Of a DNA stretch of 64,000 nt, positions 12,291-39,135 are shown piece by piece. Under the pieces are notes generated by a model, which was given only the letters and a program-made list of their open reading frames with translations, made no database searches and was not told the DNA's origin. The position numbers and the translations under genes are program-made. The stretch is from an uncultured Alphaproteobacteria bacterium (GTDB taxonomy: Bacteria > Pseudomonadota > Alphaproteobacteria > UBA11222), in NCBI GenBank assembly GCA_947258435.1, contig CAMYID010000016.1:124001-188000 (forward strand). The letters are read 5' to 3'. Every line of letters starts with the position of its first letter. The stretch's first letter is position 1.

Positions 12291-13246
12291 GTTTGCAGCA
12301 GACAGAAAAAAGCGAGAGAGAAGAACCCGGATCCGCCTGGATTCTGAGCGCGAAGGACGCGCTCGATTCGGCACGCGCGGGGGATATGACGGTCTCGTTC
12401 GAGTTCTTCCCGCCCAAAACCCCCCAGATGGAGGAAACGCTCTGGCGTTCGATCACCCGGCTTGCCCCCTTTCAGCCCGAATTCGTCTCGGTGACCTACG
12501 GAGCGGGCGGATCGACCCGGCAGCGCACCCATGACACGGTCAAGCGTATCCTCGATGAGACCGCGCTTACACCGGCCGCGCATCTGACCTGCGTTGGCGC
12601 GGATCGTGGGGAGGTGGATGAGGTCATCAGGGAATACTGGCAGGCCGGAGTACGGCATATCGTTGCCCTGCGCGGCGACCCGCCGGAAGGGCAAAGCAGC
12701 TACACCCCCTATCCGGGCGGCTATGCCTATGCATCCGATCTTGTCGCGGGTATCCGCGCGGTCGGTGATTTTGAAATCAGCGTCGCCGCCTATCCCGAAG
12801 GGCATGTGGATGCCCCTGACGCACAGGCGGAAATCGATAATCTGAAACGCAAGATCGATGCGGGCGCGACCCGCGCGATCACGCAGTTCTTTTTCGACAC
12901 CGATTGCTTTCTGCGCTATCTCGACCGTATCCGCGATGCGGGCATTACAATCCCTGTCGTGCCCGGTATCATGCCGGTGACGAATTTCGCCGGTGCCAGC
13001 CGCATGGCAAAAATGAATGGCGCCTCGGTTCCAGAATGGTTCGCCAACCTGTTTGACGGGCTGGAACAGGAAACTGAAACTCGAAAGCTCATCGCCGCCA
13101 TCGCAGCCGCCGAGCAATGCGTCCGTTTACGTGCCCACGGGGTGCATGATTTTCATTTCTATACGCTGAACCGCGCCGATCTGACCTATGCGCTGTGCCA
13201 TATACTGGGGTTGCGCGCCAATGCAGAGAAGGAGCCTGTAAAATGA
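12287..13246 (+). CDS. metF: Methylenetetrahydrofolate reductase
   Basis: The product has 319 residues and catalyses FAD-dependent reduction of 5,10-methylene-THF to 5-methyl-THF, the methyl donor for methionine synthase. The family signature is visible: [18 protein letters not shown] near residue 35, then [42 protein letters not shown] and AYPEGH. The first 34 residues are an extra, probably flexible leader. The GTG start overlaps the upstream stop by four bases, with AGGAGG eight bases before it. Its own stop overlaps the next start (ATGA). This tight coupling indicates that the reductase and synthase are made together. Confidence 0.95.
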
Positions 13247-14340
13247 CCGCAGACAGAACCTCACGTATCAACGCCCTGCAACAGGCCTTGAAAGAGCGGA
13301 TTCTGGTCATCGACGGTGCGATGGGCACGATGATACAGAATCATGAGCTGACCGAAGCCGATTACCGCCAGGAACGGTTCGTCGACCATGATCACGATTT
13401 GAAGGGTAATGGCGACCTGCTATGCCTGACCCAGCCCGATATCATTGCCGGCATTCATCAGCAGTTCCTCGATGCGGGTGCCGATATTCTGATTACCAAC
13501 ACCTTCAGCGCAACGACCATCGCACAGGGCGATTACGGGCTCACGCATCTTGTCAGTGAACTCAATGAAAGTGCCGCGCGGCTGGCGCGCAAGGTGGCGG
13601 ACCGGCAGACCGAACAGACTCCGGACAAGCCGCGCTGGGTCGCCGGCGGGATCGGCCCGACCAACCGGACAGCCACCATCTCCCCCGACGTAAACGATCC
13701 CGCCTTCCGCAATATCTCCTTCGATGAACTGCGCGACGCCTATCTGGAAGCGGCGCGCGCGCTTGTCGCGGGGGGCGTCGATATTCTGCTGATCGAAACC
13801 GTGTTCGACACGCTGAACTGCAAAGCCGCTATTTTCGCGCTTGAATTACTGTTTGAGGAGCTTGGCGAGCGGCTGCCGGTATTGATTTCAGGCACGATTA
13901 CCGACCGCTCAGGCCGGACGCTGACCGGTCAGACACCGGAAGCATTCTGGAATTCCATACGTCATGCGCAATCGCTTGCCATGGGACTGAACTGTGCGCT
14001 GGGGGCAGAGGAGATGCGCCCCCACATCGCCGAACTGTCGCGGGTCGCCGACTGCTATATCAGCGCCTATCCCAATGCGGGCTTGCCGAACGGCTTTGGC
14101 GGCTATGACGAAACGCCTGAAACGACTGCCGGCCATATCGCCGAATGGGCGAATGCCGGGCTTCTCAATCTGGTGGGCGGATGCTGCGGCACCACCCCTG
14201 ATCACATTCGCGCCATCGCGCAGGCGGTGGCCGGCATCCCGCCACGCAAGCCTGCCGACCCGCAGCGCACAATGCGCCTGTCCGGGCTCGAACCCTTCAC
14301 CTTTCCTGTTGAAAACTCCGCCACAGAGGTACGTGCGTAA
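13243..14340 (+). CDS. metH: Methionine synthase, homocysteine-binding subunit (N-terminal part of split MetH)
   Basis: At 365 residues this corresponds to the homocysteine-binding barrel of cobalamin-dependent methionine synthase. It opens with [13 protein letters not shown] and has the zinc cysteines in GLNCALG and in the [10 protein letters not shown] motif near residue 325, which activate homocysteine thiolate. Full-length MetH is a single chain of about 1230 residues in E. coli; here the barrel ends with its own stop and the remaining domains follow in the next gene. The total of both parts (365 + 883) equals the usual length, so this is a clean split and not a frameshift. The start overlaps the metF stop. 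Confidence 0.93.
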
Positions 14341-16992
14341 ATGTTACCAACTTTTGTCAATATCGGTGAGCGGACCAACATCACAGGGTCCGCCAAATTC
14401 AAAAAACTGATCCTTGACGGCGATTTTGATGCCGCCCTGGCCGTCGCCCGGCAGCAGGTGGAAAACGGCGCCCAGATCATCGATGTCAACATGGATGAAG
14501 GGCTGCTCGATTCCGAGGCGGCCATGGTGCGTTTCCTTAGCCTGATCGCGTCGGAGCCCGAAATCAGCCGCGTCCCGGTGATGATCGATTCATCGAAATG
14601 GTCGGTGATCGAGGCGGGCCTCAAATGCGTTCAGGGCAAATCCATCGTCAACTCGATCAGCCTGAAGGAAGGTGAGGAAATCTTTCTGGAGCAGGCAATA
14701 ACAATCCGGCGCTATGGCGCGGCAACCGTCGTCATGGCCTTTGACGAGGCGGGACAGGCGGACACCGCCGACCGCAAATATGAAATTTGCGAACGTTCCT
14801 ACCGGCTGCTGACCGGGAAAGCGGGGTTTCCGCCCGAGGATATCATTTTCGACCCCAATATTTTCGCAGTCGCCACCGGGATTGAGGAACACAACAATTA
14901 CGCGGTCGACTTTTTCAACGCAACGCGGCGGATCAAGCAGAACCTGCCCCACTGCCGCGTCTCGGGGGGCGTATCCAACGTCTCCTTTTCCTTTCGCGGC
15001 AATAACCGGGTGCGCGAGGCCATGCATTCGGTGTTCCTTTATCACGGTATCAGAGCCGGACTTGATATGGGCATCGTCAATGCCGGACAGCTCACCGTCT
15101 ATGCGGACATCCCGCCCGAGCTTCTGGAACGGGTTGAGGATGTCATTCTGAACCGCCGCGACGATGCCACCGAAAGACTGCTTGAGATCGCCGATGAGTA
15201 TCGCGGCGACAATGTGAAGAAAGCGGCGGCTGACCTTGCCTGGCGCGAGCGGCCGGTCAATGATCGGCTCGAACATGCGTTGGTGAAGGGAATTACCGAA
15301 TTCATCATTGAAGATACGGAGGAAGCCCGCTGCGCCGCCAGCCGCCCGATCGAGGTGATCGAAGGCCCGCTCATGCAGGGGATGAACACCGTCGGCGATT
15401 TATTCGGCGCGGGTAAGATGTTTCTGCCCCAGGTCGTCAAGAGCGCGCGTGTCATGAAGCAGGCTGTTGCCCATCTGACACCTTTCATGGAGCGCGAGCG
15501 GGAGGAATCGGGCGCCGCGGAAGATGCCAATGGCAAAATCATCATGGCGACGGTGAAGGGCGATGTTCACGATATCGGCAAGAATATCGTCGGCGTCGTG
15601 CTGCAATGTAACAATTATCAGGTGATCGATCTGGGGGTTATGGTGCCCGCGGACAAAATCCTTGATGCCGCGGCCGAAGAAAAGGCCGACATTATCGGCC
15701 TGTCCGGGCTGATCACGCCGAGCCTTGACGAAATGTGCACCGTAGCCGCGGAAATGCAGCGGCGTAAGATGCAAATTCCGCTGTTGATCGGCGGCGCAAC
15801 GACAAGCAAGGTGCACACCGCCGTCAAGATCGCCCCCAATTACAGCAACAGTCAGGCCGTCTATGTGCCCGACGCATCGCGCGCGGTGTCGGTGGTCAGT
15901 GATCTGATCGATGAAAAGCGCGGCAGCGACATGATAACCGCCATCCGCAGCGAATATGCGCAACTGCGCGACCGTCACGCGCAGGCCGATCGCGATACCC
16001 GCCGCTCATCCCTTCCCCAGGCACGCGAGAACCGCGTCAAAATCGACTGGAACGGCTATAACGCACCAAAGCCGACATTCCTGGGACTGAAAACATTCGA
16101 CGACTATCCGCTGGAGCGGCTTGTTGAACGGATCGACTGGAGCCCGTTTTTCCATACCTGGGAATTGCAGGGCAGCTATCCCAAAATCCTGACAGACAAG
16201 ACAGTTGGCGAAGCCGCGCAGAATCTTTTCCATGATGCGCGGGCCATGCTGGACCGGATCGTCGCGGAAAAATGGTTTCGTCCCCGCGCGGTGATCGGTT
16301 TCTGGCCCGCCAGCGCACAAGTCGATGATATCATTCTTTATACAGATGAAAGCCGGCAGACGGAACTGCAGCGGCTGCATTTCCTGCGCCAGCAGATGCA
16401 GCGCAAAAACAGCCGCGCGAATTTCTGCCTGTCCGATTTCGTGGCACCGACAGGCAGCGGCGTGTCCGACTATCTGGGTGGTTTCGCGGTGACGGCGGGC
16501 GAAGGCATCGACGAAGCGGTGGCGAAATTCGACGCAGCCCAGGACGACTACAACGCCATCATGGTGAAGGCGCTGGCCGACCGGCTGGCCGAAGCGTTCG
16601 CTGAACATATGCATGAACGGGTAAGGCGCGAATTCTGGGGTTATGCCGCAGCGGAAGATCTGGATAATGAGGCGCTGATCGCCGAACAGTATCAGGGCAT
16701 CCGTCCCGCTCCCGGTTACCCCGCCTGCCCCGATCATACCGAAAAACGGCTGCTGTTCGAGTTGCTCGATGCGGAACGGAAGGCCGGCATCCGGCTGAGC
16801 GAGAATTTCGCCATGCTGCCGGCCTCATCGGTCAGCGGCTTTTATTTCAGCCATCCCGACAGCTGCTATTTCGGTGTCGGCCGGATCGATAAGGATCAGG
16901 TCACCGACTATGCCGCCCGCAAAGGCGAGGATATCGCCGAAATCGAACGCTGGCTCGCCCCCAATCTCAATTATGAGCGGGGGTCTGGCTGA
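14341..16992 (+). CDS. metH: Methionine synthase, folate/cobalamin/reactivation subunit (C-terminal part of split MetH)
   Basis: The 883-residue protein begins directly after the stop codon of the homocysteine-binding part. It has a pterin-binding barrel from residue 1 ([20 protein letters not shown], then [17 protein letters not shown]), a cobalamin cap and Rossmann domain with the DxHxxG motif at Asp408-Val-His410 ([14 protein letters not shown]), where His410 is the lower ligand of B12, and the C-terminal SAM-binding reactivation domain ([16 protein letters not shown], then [20 protein letters not shown]). It transfers methyl from methyl-THF through cobalamin to homocysteine held by the partner subunit. 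Keeping the reactivation domain implies in-chain repair of oxidised cobalamin. Similar split MetH genes occur in other alphaproteobacteria. Confidence 0.94.
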
Positions 16993-17003
16993 CGCGCGGA
17001 AAA

Positions 17004-17022
17004 GGCCGGACACAAGCCGGCC
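17004..17022 (-). terminator. Intrinsic terminator for the small minus-strand gene at 17041
   Basis: On the minus strand GGCCGG pairs with CCGGCC around a seven-base loop and is followed by TTTTCC. It lies 18 bases after the stop codon of the 26-codon gene. On the plus strand the same hairpin sits 12 bases past metH and may act there too. Confidence 0.6.
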
Positions 17023-17040
17023 GTACCACGGGCTGAAGCG

Positions 17041-17121
17041 CTAGAAGCTGGCAATGACAAAAGCACCAAGAAATCCGAATGCCAAAGCGACGAGCGCATG
17101 CCGAAAAGCTTCGGTAATCAT
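17041..17121 (-). CDS. Putative 26-residue membrane peptide
   Basis: A short frame encodes a peptide opening MITEAFRHALVALAFGF and ending FVIASF: a small polar head followed by one hydrophobic span. The start codon has a strong GGGAGGGAG ribosome site at good spacing, and the frame ends just before a hairpin with a T-run. Start, ribosome site, hydrophobic span and terminator together make a real gene likely, although peptides this short cannot be identified by family. It stands alone between metH and the PilZ gene, transcribed against both. The 244 bases upstream hold its promoter and that of the PilZ gene; I see no other gene there. Confidence 0.5.
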   Translation of the reverse strand: MITEAFRHALVALAFGFLGAFVIASF

Positions 17122-17365
17122 GTCTCCCTCCCAAATTGCAACCCTGGCAAAACTCTGTGCAGGCAGTGATAATGATGGAGCATTACCGGAGAATTTCAAG
17201 TGGATAAATTCCCGATGAAACTCCTCCTAATGACTATTCCAATTCCGGAGCCAACACCCCGAAATCTTCAGATTTCCGCCGTCCTGCCCGCGCCGGAAAC
17301 CCCGGGTTCATGCAATAACTTCTTAACGATTCCTCGCTATTGTCGGGGGAACCAAGGGGTGTCAG

Positions 17366-17791
17366 ATGCGCAACAGGGGATTAAAACAGCTTGATCTGTT
17401 TACCGGCGAGGCGGCAACCGCGTCGACCGGTCATATTCGCGTTTCAGCCGATGAAAAGCGCCGTTTTATCCGCAACCCGGTCCCGTTGCAGATTCAGGTG
17501 ATCGCGGATGGGGACGCATTTTCTGCCCATGTCATCGATATCTCCGCGGGTGGCGCCCGGCTTGTCTGCGCGCTCGTGCCCCGCATTAATGCGGTAATTG
17601 AGCTCGATATCGCCGAATTCGGTCGCATCCGGGGGCAAGTCGTTCGCCGCTTTCCCTATAGCTTCGCGGTCGCATTCGACATTGAGGCGGAGAGACAGTC
17701 GCAACTGACGGAATGTCTTACCGCGGCAGCGGCACATACGGCGGAGGACGCGGCACCGGCACCCGGGCCCCGGCGCCATGACGCGGCCTGA
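17366..17791 (+). CDS. PilZ domain protein (probable cyclic-di-GMP receptor)
   Basis: The 141-residue protein contains one PilZ domain. The c-di-GMP-binding elements are visible: Arg32 and Arg36 in RRFIRN (RxxxR) and the later VIDISAGGARLV (D-x-S-x-G-G). A short N-terminal tail (MRNRGLKQLDLFTGE) and an Ala/Pro-rich C-terminal tail flank it, with no catalytic partner domain. Such stand-alone PilZ proteins pass c-di-GMP levels to motility, polysaccharide or cell-cycle machinery. It is a single gene, with a GGGG-rich ribosome site upstream, converging on the oxoprolinase gene. Confidence 0.88.
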   Translation: MRNRGLKQLDLFTGEAATASTGHIRVSADEKRRFIRNPVPLQIQVIADGDAFSAHVIDISAGGARLVCALVPRINAVIELDIAEFGRIRGQVVRRFPYSFAVAFDIEAERQSQLTECLTAAAAHTAEDAAPAPGPRRHDAA

Positions 17792-17821
17792 CGACAGGCG
17801 CTTTCTGCAACAAACCGCGCG

Positions 17822-20800
17822 CTAACGCCCCGGAGGCTTGCCAAATCCACCACCGCCCGGGGTTTCGATAAGAATTGCATCCCCCACACCCAGCATCGCA
17901 TGGGCGCATCCTTCCAGCGGCTCAAGGCTGCCCGTGGCGCGCCGGATGCTGTTCCTGCCCGGCACGGCATCGCAACCGCCCTGCAACCCAAAGGGCGCGA
18001 TTGTCCGCCGCATGGACAGAATACTGACCGCCATCGGCGCAAGGAAACGGATTTCGCGCACCACCCCATCGCCGCCCCGGCTGCGCCCTGCGCCCCCCGA
18101 CCCGCGCCGGATCGCAAAACGTTCGATCAGGACCGGAAACCGGCTTTCAAGGATTTCGGGATCGGTCAGCCGGGAATTTGTCATATGGGTCTGCACCGCC
18201 GACGCGCCGTCAAAATCCGGTCCGGCTCCCGCCCCGCCCGCGATCGTCTCGTAATACTGATACCGCGCATCGCCGAAGGTGAGGTTATTCATCGTCCCCT
18301 GCGCCGCCGCCATCGCTCCGAAAGCCGCAAACAGCGCATCGGTGATGGCCTGGCTGGTTTCCACATTTCCCGCCACAACCGCGGCGGGATAATCCGGGTT
18401 GAGCAGACTGCCCGCCGGCACCCGGATATCAAGCGGCTTGAGACATCCCTGATTAAGCGGAATATCGGCATCCACCATACAGCGGAAGGCGTAGAGCACA
18501 GCGGCTTTGCACACCGCAAGCGGCGCATTGAAATTGCTGTCGTCAAGTTGCGCGCTTGTGCCGCTGAAATCGACAACCGCACTTCGCGCCGCGCGATCAG
18601 GCCGCACCGCCACGGCGATCCGCGCACCATTATCAAGATGGAGCGCAAAGCTGCTCTCGGGCAAGGACGCGATTACCTGCCGCACCGCCTCTTCCGCATT
18701 GTCCTGGACATGCCGCATATAGGCCTGCACGACATCAAATCCGAAATGCGCAACCATTCGCCGCAGCTCAGCGATGCCTTTTTCGCAGGCCGCGATCTGC
18801 GCCTTGAGATCGGCGATATTCTGATCCGGATTGCGCGCAGGATAACGCCCTGCCGCCAGCAGCGCCCGCAGCGCCTCCTCCTGAAACTCACCGCCGGCAA
18901 CCAGCCTGATATTGTCGATCAGAACCCCTTCCTCGGCGACATTTCTCGAATGCGGCGGCATGGATCCCGGTGTCAGCCCGCCAATATCGGCGTGGTGACC
19001 GCGGGCGGCGACATAAAACCAGATATCGCTGCCCGCCGGATCGAATACCGGCGCAATCACGGTAATGTCGGGCAGATGCGTACCCCCCGCATAGGGGGCG
19101 TTCAGCACAAATACATCGCCGGCCGCCATCGCCGCCCCATACTGCGCGATAACCGCACGCACACTCTCGCTCATCGAACCAAGATGCACCGGCATATGCG
19201 GCGCATTGGCCGTCAAGTTACCCTCCGCGTCAAACAGCGCACAGGAGAAATCGAGCCGTTCCTTGATGTTCACCGAATGGGCGGTATTTTCCAGCGTGAA
19301 GCCCATCTGCTCGGCGATACTCATGAACAGATTATTGAAAATTTCGAGCATGACGGGATCAGCCGCCGTGCCTGTCGCCTGTTTTCGGGGCGCTGCCGCA
19401 TGACGATGCAGAACAAGCGTCCCCTCCTGGTCGCATTGCGCCGTCCAGCCCGGTTCGAGCACAATGGTGCCATGCGCCTCCACGATGATGGCAGGGCCCT
19501 GCAGCGCGGCACCGGGCACAAAGCTGTCGCGGCGGGTGACCGGCGCTTCATGCCACGCACCGCCAGAGAAAAAGCGCGTCTGACGCAGCAACTCAGGGTC
19601 CGGGGACTGCCCCTCAACCGGCCCTTCCGCCTGCACCGCTTCCGCCTGCCGGCTGATCGTTTCATTTCCGATTGCCTCGACCGAGACGGAATCGATCACA
19701 ACCTGTTGCTCGGGCTGGGTAAAGCCGAACTGTTGCCGATGCGCGGTTTCAAAACTCGCGCGCATTGCCTCTGCAGCCCCGGCCTGCACCCCAAGACAGC
19801 TATCCGCACCGCGATAGCGCAGACTGACCTCATGCACGCAACGGATCTGCGCGGTCGGAATACCCTGGGCCGCCACTTCATCGCGCGCCGCCGCCGCAAG
19901 CGTCTCGATCGCCCGATCAAGGCTTGCCACCGCCTCTGAAGATAGCGGCAGGTTGAGCGACTGCTCACGATGGGCGCGAATATCGGCAAGCCCCATGCCG
20001 TAAGCGGATAACACCCCTGCGAGCGGATGCAGGACAACCCGCTTCATGCCCAGCGCATCCGCCACAAGGCAGGCATGTTGCCCGCCCGCACCCCCGAAAC
20101 AGGCCAGGGCGTAATCGCTGACATCATAGCCGCGCTGCACCGAAATCTTCTTGATCGCCTGCGCCATGTTTTCAACAGCGATGCGCAAGAATCCATCCGC
20201 CACCTCGACCGCTTCCGTGTCGCCGCCGATCGCCTCGGCCATATCGGCGAACTGCCGGTGCACCACCGCATCGTCGAGAGGCGCCTGACCATCCGGGCCA
20301 AACAGATGCGGAAACAGGTCCGGCAGCAGTTTGCCCGTCATCACATTGGCATCGGTCACGGTCAGCGGCCCGCCGCGCCGGTAACAGGCGGGCCCCGGAT
20401 CGGCACCGGCCGATTGCGGGCCGACCCGCATCCGCGCGCCATCATAGCGCAGAACAGAGCCGCCCCCCGCCGCGACGGTATGGATGCGCATCATCGGCGC
20501 ACGCATCCGCACCCCGGCAACCAGCGTCTCGAAGGCCCGCTCATAGCTGCCATTATAATGCGATACATCGGTCGAGGTGCCGCCCATGTCGAAACCGATC
20601 AGCCTGTCAAAACCCGCCCGCGCCGCCGTCTGCACCGCACCGACGACGCCGCCTGCCGGCCCTGACAGGATCGCATCGCGTCCCTGAAAAAGCCGCGCAT
20701 CGGTCAGCCCGCCATTTGATTGCATGAACATGAGCCGGCAGCCCGGCCCGTCCTCGCCGCTGCCCTGACCGCCCGGCCCAGGTGCCAGCGCGTCTGCAAG

Positions 20801-21499
20801 CTGCGCCACATAGCGGCGCAAGATCGGCGACAGATAGGCATCGACAACCGTCGTATCGCCACGCCCGACAAATTTGATCAGCCGGCTGACCTCGTGACTG
20901 ACCGAGAGCTGCGTAAAGCCGATCTCACGGGCAATTCCGGCCACTATTTGCTCATGGGCGGGATAGCGATAGCCATGCATGAAGACGATTGCCGCGGCGC
21001 GGATTCCCGTGTCATAGGCCGATTGCAGCGCCGCACGCACCACAGCGGGATCAGGCGTGCGGACAACCCTGCCATCGGCGCACACGCGTTCATCAATCTC
21101 GACAACCTGCTCATAGAGCATATCGGGCAGTATAATGGCCCGTGCAAACAATTCCGGCCGGTTCTGATAGCCGATCCGCAAACCATCGGCGAACCCCCGC
21201 GTCGTCACAAAAAGCGTCCGCTCCCCCTCGCGCTCAAGCAGCGCATTGGTTGCAACCGTCGTACCCATGCGGATATGGGCGATCTTATCTATGGGTACCG
21301 GCGCGCCATCGGGCACCTGCAGCAAGGCCCGAATGCCCGCAATCGCCGCATCGCGATAGCGCGCCCGATTCTCGGACAGCAGCTTGCGGGTATGAACATG
21401 CCCGTGCGGGTCCGACGCAACAATGTCGGTGAAGGTGCCGCCCCGGTCGATCCAGAAACGCCACTTGCCCGGAGCTGCATTGATCCTCGCTGTTGCCAT
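17822..21499 (-). CDS. Hydantoinase/5-oxoprolinase family protein (HyuA-HyuB fusion)
   Basis: At 1225 residues this is a fusion of the HyuA ATP-binding half ([18 protein letters not shown] near the N-terminus, [33 protein letters not shown]) with the HyuB half (about residue 700 on: [43 protein letters not shown]). This is the arrangement of ATP-dependent 5-oxoprolinase (OplaH), which opens 5-oxo-L-proline to glutamate; related enzymes act on hydantoins or acetophenone. The substrate is not decidable from sequence. The start follows AGAGATCAGG. It is monocistronic, and no racemase or carbamoylase lies next to it to suggest a hydantoin pathway. Confidence 0.88.
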
Positions 21500-37662: not shown

Positions 37663-39135
37663 ATGGCAAAAACAGGACTGGACAAGGATCTCAAGCGGAT
37701 CGGTCGCGCCCAATCGGCAACACGCGAGACGGCGATGCGGTTCGGCCCCATTGGGCTTGCCGGGTTGTTTCTGGCGGCGGTTTGGCTGGTTACCAGCTTG
37801 CAGGCAGAGGGCATCCACGGCAATTTCCTGATCATTGCCGCAGTGATTGGCGGCTATATGGCCTTGAATATCGGGGCGAACGATGTTGCGAACAATGTCG
37901 GGCCGGCAGTGGGGTCGAAGGCGCTGACCCTGACCGGGGCATTGATTATCGCGGCGATTTTCGAAGCAGCGGGAGCGATACTGGCCGGGGGCGACGTGGT
38001 TTCGACGATTTCCAAGGGAATCATCGACCCCATGGCGATGCCCAGCACAGACCATTTTATCCGTGCCATGATTGCCGCCCTGCTTGCCGCGGGGATCTGG
38101 CTGCATCTGGCCACCTATATCGGTGCGCCCGTTTCGACGACCCATTCCATCGTCGGGGGCGTACTGGGCGCGGGCATCGCATCAGTCGACATCAATGTGG
38201 TGAACTGGATGACGATGAGCAAGATCGCGGCAAGCTGGATCATCTCACCGGTTCTGGGCGGGCTCATCGCCGCGCTGTTCCTCGCCTTTGTCAAATCCCG
38301 CATCATCTATCAGGAAGACAAGATCGCGGCGGCCAAGAAATGGGTGCCGGTACTTGTCGCGGTCATGGTTACCGCTTTTACCGTTTATATGATGGTAAAG
38401 GGGTTGAAGCGCCTCTGGCACCCCGAGGCGGAGCTGATTGTCATTTCTGCCGTTCTCGCCTTCGCGATTTCCTATGTCATTCTGCGGCCCGTGATCGCGC
38501 GCGCCGCATTCGGGCTTGAGAACAGGCGCGCCTCGGTTGCGGAGCTGTTTACCTATCCGCTGATATTCGCCGCCTGTATGCTTTCCTTCGCCCATGGCGC
38601 AAACGACGTGGCCAACGCAGTCGGCCCGCTTGCCGCCATTGTCACGGCGGTCACGACAGGCGGCATCGCCACAAAAGCAGAAGTGCCGTTCTGGGTGATG
38701 GGGGTCGGCGCGATCGGTATCTCCATGGGGCTTGCGCTGTTCGGGCCCAGGCTGATCCGCACCGTCGGCGCTGAAATCACCAAACTTGACCGTGCCCGCG
38801 CCTTTTGCGTGGCATTGTCCGCCGCGATCACAGTCATCGCCGCATCGACCCTGGGGCTGCCTGTAAGTTCCACCCATATCGCGGTCGGGGCCGTTTTCGG
38901 CGTTGGGTTCCTGCGTGAATTCCGCAGCAACCGCGCCAATAACAAGGCCCAACCGGAAACCGCATCCGCACCATTGTCAAAAAAGAAGCAACGCAAGGCC
39001 AAAAAACGAAAGCTTGTGCGACGGCAACATCTTATCACGATCGTGTCGGCCTGGCTGATCACGGTTCCGGCAGCGGCCGGACTTGCTATGGCAATTTGCA
39101 TGGGACTGGATTATTTCATGCAGCAATCCGGTTGA
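37663..39135 (+). CDS. Low-affinity inorganic phosphate transporter (PiT family)
   Basis: The 490-residue membrane protein carries both PiT signature repeats: ALNIGANDVANNVGPAVGSKAL near residue 68 and FAHGANDVANAVGPLAAI near residue 308, each with the GANDVANxxGP motif. Matching GAPVSTTHSIVGGVLGAG and GLPVSSTHIAVGAVFGVG repeats follow. A basic cytoplasmic loop (KKKQRKAKKRKLVRRQ) precedes the last span. It imports phosphate, probably as a metal-phosphate complex with protons. No Pho box was noticed upstream. AGGAAC precedes ATG 37663. The MATE gene follows after 49 bases. Confidence 0.93.
   Translation: MAKTGLDKDLKRIGRAQSATRETAMRFGPIGLAGLFLAAVWLVTSLQAEGIHGNFLIIAAVIGGYMALNIGANDVANNVGPAVGSKALTLTGALIIAAIFEAAGAILAGGDVVSTISKGIIDPMAMPSTDHFIRAMIAALLAAGIWLHLATYIGAPVSTTHSIVGGVLGAGIASVDINVVNWMTMSKIAASWIISPVLGGLIAALFLAFVKSRIIYQEDKIAAAKKWVPVLVAVMVTAFTVYMMVKGLKRLWHPEAELIVISAVLAFAISYVILRPVIARAAFGLENRRASVAELFTYPLIFAACMLSFAHGANDVANAVGPLAAIVTAVTTGGIATKAEVPFWVMGVGAIGISMGLALFGPRLIRTVGAEITKLDRARAFCVALSAAITVIAASTLGLPVSSTHIAVGAVFGVGFLREFRSNRANNKAQPETASAPLSKKKQRKAKKRKLVRRQHLITIVSAWLITVPAAAGLAMAICMGLDYFMQQSG

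Follow-up and report, generated by a model that had tools for sequence, protein, structure and literature searches.

A conserved 26-codon frame between metH and a PilZ-domain gene of an uncultured alphaproteobacterium, its predicted single-span membrane peptide and a probable relative in Parvibaculum

Between metH and a PilZ-domain gene of an uncultured alphaproteobacterium lies a 26-codon frame that changes, in the sister species, in the manner of a translated gene under purifying selection, and its predicted product is a membrane peptide with a probable relative in Parvibaculum. Our best reading is a small family of single-span membrane peptides, of patchy occurrence and possibly stress-induced in the genus of origin. 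Proteins of less than 30 residues are often omitted from annotation, and the three sequences at hand, those of the genome of origin (G000), of the sister species (G001) and of the Parvibaculum locus (L083), make a first profile for a small-protein family; no broader principle is altered. The order is represented by six genomes in two genera, and the sister species is the single other genome of the own genus. The window, that is, the whole stretch of 64,000 nucleotides analysed, holds the following features around the frame.

13195-14340 and 14341-16992, plus strand: metH as two adjacent frames, which together match methionine synthase models
17000-17022, minus strand: GC hairpin and TTTT, a weak candidate terminator (from folding)
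17041-17121, minus strand: open reading frame of 26 codons with its stop, encoding MITEAFRHALVALAFGFLGAFVIASF, with one membrane span predicted near residues 9-25 (from translation, hydropathy, the sister-species copy, dN/dS and the L083 relative)
17124-17132, minus strand: Shine-Dalgarno sequence GGGAGGGAG, with GGAGG 5 bases before the ATG; identical in the sister species, same 5-base spacing in L083
17172-17200, minus strand: promoter-like CTTGAA (17200-17195) N17 CATCAT (17177-17172), of heat-shock (RpoH) type by the layout of groES/hsp20 promoters; same hexamers in the sister species
17188-17242, minus strand: conserved block, 54 of 55 bases identical in the sister species, covering the -35 and DNA upstream of it
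17366-17791: PilZ-domain gene (pilZ), from which the peptide frame diverges
17822-21499, minus strand: hydantoinase/oxoprolinase gene, beyond pilZ and on the strand of the peptide

A sequence-only reading of this DNA had claimed a 26-codon minus-strand frame between metH and the PilZ gene, with one hydrophobic span and a well-spaced ribosome site, and all of this is borne out. The frame begins with ATG and faces the 3' end of metH, its best 17-residue Kyte-Doolittle mean is 2.42, and the sequence preceding the ATG is GGGAGGGAGAC, with GGAGG at the spacing given above. At 26 residues and with this one span, the peptide falls among the small membrane proteins, understood here as those below about 50 residues with a single hydrophobic span. 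When the window was scanned for ATG frames of 17-50 codons that match the Shine-Dalgarno sequence at 4 bases or more and reach a 17-residue hydropathy of 1.9, two frames came up, and the one described here has the better ribosome site and hydropathy of both; the second, at 38267 on the minus strand, lies opposite a 490-aa open frame. No family was found for the peptide in Pfam (E ≤0.01), NCBIfam (E ≤1) or PHROGs (E ≤1), and a paralog search of the own genome gave nothing convincing, the best match (E 0.9) lying within a 269-aa frame. Rfam has no match above the gathering score in 16500-18000, where the single sub-threshold match (E 0.89) was rejected.

The sister species encodes MLTGTIRHALVALAFGFLGAFVIASF in the same place, 85% identical to the own peptide without gaps and preceded by the identical Shine-Dalgarno sequence. 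The two frames differ at 13 bases, distributed 3/1/9 over codon positions 1, 2 and 3, and within codons 7-26 all seven changes are silent. When the same 13 substitutions were placed at random, four or fewer residue changes resulted in 34 of 5000 trials. The dN/dS between the two frames is 0.126, as against 0.067 for the end of metH (177 codons) and 0.231 for pilZ (compared without gaps), and the share of conserved codons carrying a silent change is 7/23 in the peptide vs 52/161 at the metH end and 36/112 in pilZ. There are several indels around the frame and none in it. The substitution pattern and the dN/dS match those of a translated gene under purifying selection, and the frame is probably one; this dN/dS and the Shine-Dalgarno sequences of the sister species and L083 place it among genes with a predicted start and ribosome site of their own under such selection.

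A probable second copy, far more diverged, comes from Parvibaculum, which is also an alphaproteobacterium. Among 80 metH records, the locus L083, of a MAG titled Parvibaculum sp., encodes MIATKVGYLATGLAFFFVGAVAMGLF at 4782-4702 on the minus strand, exactly 26 codons from ATG to stop, with GGAGG 5 bases before the ATG. It is identical to the own peptide at 9 of 26 residues without gaps, and the gap-free BLOSUM62 score is equalled by 60 of 100,000 shuffles. The residues M1, L13-A14-F15, F17, G19-A20 and F26 are invariant in the three peptides, which gives the core LAF-x-F-x-GA. Immediately upstream of the L083 gene, and on its strand, is a hydantoinase B/oxoprolinase gene that is 72% identical to the one in the window over 504 residues. 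The L083 gene faces metH, from which it is separated by a carboxymuconolactone-decarboxylase-like gene and an HxlR-type regulator, whereas in the own genus pilZ stands on the other side of the peptide gene. Within the 1.5-kb gap of L083 it is the sole ATG frame of 18-45 aa with both a hydrophobic span and a Shine-Dalgarno sequence; a 30-aa GTG variant of the same frame is without the latter. The DNA is diverged from the own copy, with length and ribosome site kept. The candidate was taken from 224 loci, with tblastn giving it an E of 3.8, and it was not among the 8 best short frames under a profile of the own and sister-species peptides. Since neither the spacing of the ribosome site nor the neighbourhood had been used in choosing it, we regard the L083 frame as a probable ortholog, with good confidence. 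An earlier reading in which the peptide is restricted to its genus is probably overturned by this relative. The sequence-only reading had made its case depend on conservation of the peptide, and the peptide is conserved, in the gap-free sister-species copy with its low dN/dS and probably in L083.

How far the family extends beyond these three sequences was followed through the neighbourhood and through searches. In eight neighbourhoods (own, G001, L083, L104, G008, G009, G030 and G044) metH has an oxoprolinase gene no more than about 3.6 kb away, and a frame with the LAF-x-F-x-GA core and a Shine-Dalgarno sequence occurs in three of them, namely the first three; no such frame was seen in the oxoprolinase-metH gaps of the other five, nor in the longer gaps of G014 and G034. 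In the sister genus, metH is followed by the PilZ gene in all four genomes, and the gap between them, when read, holds no such peptide; a three-sequence profile run against the four metH contigs, which are without an oxoprolinase match, returned nothing (best E 1.1), so that a diverged copy might still sit at another place in these genomes. By tblastn over the 224 loci, close copies are found only in the own and sister-species loci, together with the L083 alignment (26 residues), among the matches listed. Eleven frames with weak matches (L015, L019, L027, L202, L206, L209, L215 and L217-L220) were read; none is a 26-residue frame, and in L209 and L217 the spans lie inside frames of 354 and 312 aa; the weak matches beyond these and L083 were judged by listed frame length only. 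Searches of 385 genomes of the class and, with a two-sequence profile, 398 of the phylum (overlapping samples, each including the own genome) gave no convincing match beyond the own genome, in the phylum among the matches listed, at a sensitivity from which a relative as diverged as L083 would escape. At a sensitivity limited in the same way, plasmid records gave no relative (8 matches at E 7, within annotated larger proteins), a degenerate pattern has 0 matches in viral contigs, and PDB sequences gave one match at E 10 and no relative. In locus L206 (G174), near 1575 on the minus strand, a 31-residue frame without a Shine-Dalgarno sequence, MLRPQLWAALIKILAFGFLGSLVLANKSIPQ, has LAFGFLG in common with the peptide; it is a weak lead, either chance or a distant relative.

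Upstream of the frame, the conserved block extends 42 bases beyond the -35, and a dyad GAATTT-N9-AAATTC at 17191-17211 lies across the -35 in both the own and the sister genome; the DNA between the block and the pilZ-proximal region has diverged between the two. Among the 224 loci the 55-bp block occurs only in those of the two genomes, and it was not found in the sister genus (best match outside the genus E 0.49). Set against the RpoH pattern, the promoter-like site agrees at 6/6 positions of the -35, has a spacing of 17 and agrees at 4/6 positions with CTACAT at the -10; it also reads as a sigma-70-like site, with a 9/12 match. As a yardstick we used the regions upstream of groES and hsp20 in the six genomes, 24 of 26 matches (9 + 17), with L181 and L193 omitted as lying near contig ends. 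CTTGAA followed at N16-17 by at least 4/6 of CTACAT is present in 10 of these 24 regions, the other 14 being without the full site, and perfect RpoH-like sites precede groES of G001, G003 and G004 and hsp20 of G000, G001 and G002. RpoH itself (TIGR02392) exceeds the curated cut-off in all six genomes. The Sinorhizobium meliloti RpoH1 motif CTTGAA-N15-16-CCTATAT of Barnett et al. 2012, as cited in a later source (PMC4843759), is in agreement, and in R. sphaeroides bases of the TTG in the -35 matter for both RpoH proteins (PMC3441632). When the own genome was searched with an E. coli-like heat-shock pattern, 24 matches resulted (backward control 4), of which 23 are inside longer frames, and the expectation for an RpoH-like site is 0.0026 per 110 bases, a value that counts the site itself among 3 and whose threshold was set post hoc. 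RpoH control of the peptide gene is tentatively taken as likely in the own genus. Because the block runs 42 bases past the -35 with the dyad across it, a further DNA-binding protein acting there is plausible.

The upstream DNA of L083 lends this promoter no confirmation. Its nearest RpoH-like site, CTCGAA-N16-CTATCT, is at chance level (343 of 2000 Markov sequences have one), and the alignment of its upstream DNA to the own block is equalled by 43 of 2000 Markov sequences, that of the whole upstream region by 298 of 2000; a longer gapped candidate alignment of the sister-species and L083 upstream regions has a score of 16. The word TTTATCCAC, presumably DnaA-box-like, is present upstream both in the own genome (17200-17210 region) and in L083 (upstream of 4782), and this common occurrence is only a lead.

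At the other end of the gene, a hairpin with a T-run just past the stop had been proposed as the peptide's own terminator. The hairpin exists, GGCCGG-CTTGTGT-CCGGCC at 17004-17022, 11 bases past the metH stop codon, but only four T follow it (17000-17003), the terminator scan does not report it, and its folding energy does not stand out from that of shuffled sequences (z -1.59 and -0.38 for two cuts). The sister-species counterpart has a different sequence, a 6-pair hairpin and then TCTTTTGTT (z +0.40 and +0.03). In L083 the hairpin some 50 bases after the stop codon is strong (z -3.59), and the terminator scan does not report it either. A terminator of the gene's own is possible but doubtful.

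The scenario we propose is a gene standing by itself, with an RpoH-type promoter, whose 26-residue product crosses the inner membrane once and modulates a membrane partner under stress; we hold the chances of this scenario to be evenly balanced. The RpoH-type promoter, about 50 bases upstream, would probably drive a short mRNA in the own genus, to be translated from the ATG at 17121 with its strong ribosome site. The peptide would then enter the membrane, and since its single positive residue precedes the span (R7 in the own peptide, K5 in that of Parvibaculum), the probable orientation is N-in. Its invariant LAF-x-F-x-GA core may pack against a membrane partner or against itself, and such packing could modulate the partner under stress, in the way of other small membrane proteins with a link to stress. 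As a candidate contact, the invariant G19-A20 pair seems better than the small-residue chain A12-G16-A20-A24; the latter was rejected as a contact face, since it is at chance level (2745 of 20,000 shuffles) and broken in L083 by G16 -> F. In its broader form the proposal is an alphaproteobacterial family of 26-residue membrane peptides, found beside oxoprolinase and facing metH in at least two distant lineages, having the LAF-x-F-x-GA core, heat-shock controlled in the own genus and packing on a membrane partner during protein-folding stress. That such a family exists and is previously undescribed is, taken jointly, a tentative reading to which we give somewhat less than an even chance.

Several other explanations must be weighed. 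The sequences are few and the close copy is confined to one genus, as might be seen if the frame were there by chance; this is, however, exceedingly improbable given a dN/dS at the level of real neighbour genes, an identical ribosome site, a frame free of indels amid several around it, and the L083 relative. If the frame is real, its start might lie further upstream, for it is open upstream of the ATG in the own genome, the sister species and L083 alike, and in the first two the extension reaches a TTG, within CTTGAA, with a 12-base indel between them that keeps the frame. The protein would then be 52 residues long in the own genome and 56 in the sister species, but substitutions in the extension fall 7/3/7 across codon positions, a pattern that is not coding-like and for which the 52-aa extension was rejected; the extension also overlaps the promoter, and the Shine-Dalgarno sequence precedes the ATG in all three sequences. 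The longer protein is very improbable, and the ATG at 17121 appears to be the better start.

It may also be asked whether the product is an RNA, or a peptide with another role. The short promoter-to-hairpin unit, its intergenic place and the strongly conserved promoter block would suit a small regulatory RNA of about 165 bases, from just after the -10 to the hairpin, with the frame as an incidental or secondary feature (a dual-function RNA). Yet the changes in the frame obey the genetic code, L083 keeps length and ribosome site despite diverged DNA, neither the 5' nor the 3' part has an unusual fold, the sister species has another sequence at the 3' hairpin, and Rfam reports nothing over its gathering score around the gene, all of which makes such an RNA improbable. 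Still less probable is a type I toxin peptide silenced by an antisense RNA; size and single hydrophobic span are as expected of one, but the own genome has no convincing paralog, a promoter-like match on the plus strand (17144-17173) is altered in the sister species from GATAAT to GTTAAT, with spacing changed by the 12-base indel, and no relative was found on plasmid records or in PHROGs. A more serious possibility, although on balance an unlikely one, is that the same peptide gene is transcribed by the housekeeping sigma factor with a regulator on the conserved block, and that the peptide is a constitutive accessory subunit of a membrane complex. The sigma-70-like score of the promoter site, the block and 6-bp dyad in both genomes, which suggest a further DNA-binding factor, and the lack in L083 of an RpoH site better than chance would fit this. 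Against it, the -35 reads CTTGAA, like that of the groES/hsp20 heat-shock promoters, and not CTTGACA as in the promoter, presumably a housekeeping one, of the other own groES copy, and the neighbours checked at 13195-21499 are metH, the PilZ gene and the oxoprolinase gene, with no membrane complex among them.

The proposed stress-linked peptide probably belongs to a known kind, the stress-induced small membrane proteins, which is a kind and not a homology family; what would be added is the probable relative outside the genus and, within it, a probable promoter of heat-shock type. E. coli YohP (27 aa) resembles it in size, in having a single span and in being without a catalytic domain; the sources describe YohP as a stress-linked inner-membrane protein that dimerises via one mid-span glycine and changes membrane properties (PMC12719787; PMC7549839). 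In those descriptions YohP differs in being mainly N-out/C-in with lysines flanking the span, whereas the one arginine of the own peptide is N-terminal, and in its association with starvation, stationary phase and SDS+EDTA, where an RpoH-type promoter is proposed here. The searches made gave no sequence relationship between the two. YncL of E. coli (31 aa) is uncharacterised and reported as up-regulated in heat shock (PMC12719787); it is similar by description, in very small size and a possible heat-shock link. By analogy, the peptide may share the working style of YohP and YncL. The SEPs of Sinorhizobium meliloti are another likeness by description, as unannotated small alphaproteobacterial ORFs; some are below 30 aa, seven are predicted in the cytoplasmic membrane, and 4 of the 14 below 30 aa are conserved beyond the species (PMC10117765).

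Some side observations on the neighbouring genes are worth recording. The metH gene is split into a homocysteine methyltransferase part (13195-14340) and the remainder (14341-16992), and this split varies: among the better matches, some genomes have one frame of 1243-1320 aa, others a single frame of about 880-1000 aa. In eight neighbourhoods (including L083, L104, L230, L231, L232 and L235) a fused oxoprolinase gene is found close to metH and facing it, with differing small genes between. On the plus strand, opposite the hydantoinase/oxoprolinase gene, a 679-aa open frame at 17900-19939, probably a shadow frame, matches no model of Pfam or NCBIfam. Finally, the own genome has two groES copies, L182 (G000:C3:47706-47981) and L177 (G000:C4:44076-44351), of which one has a CTTGAA-type heat-shock promoter just upstream and the other a CTTGACA-type, and both carry TTAGCACTC-N8 or N9-GAGTGCTAA, which we take to be CIRCE.
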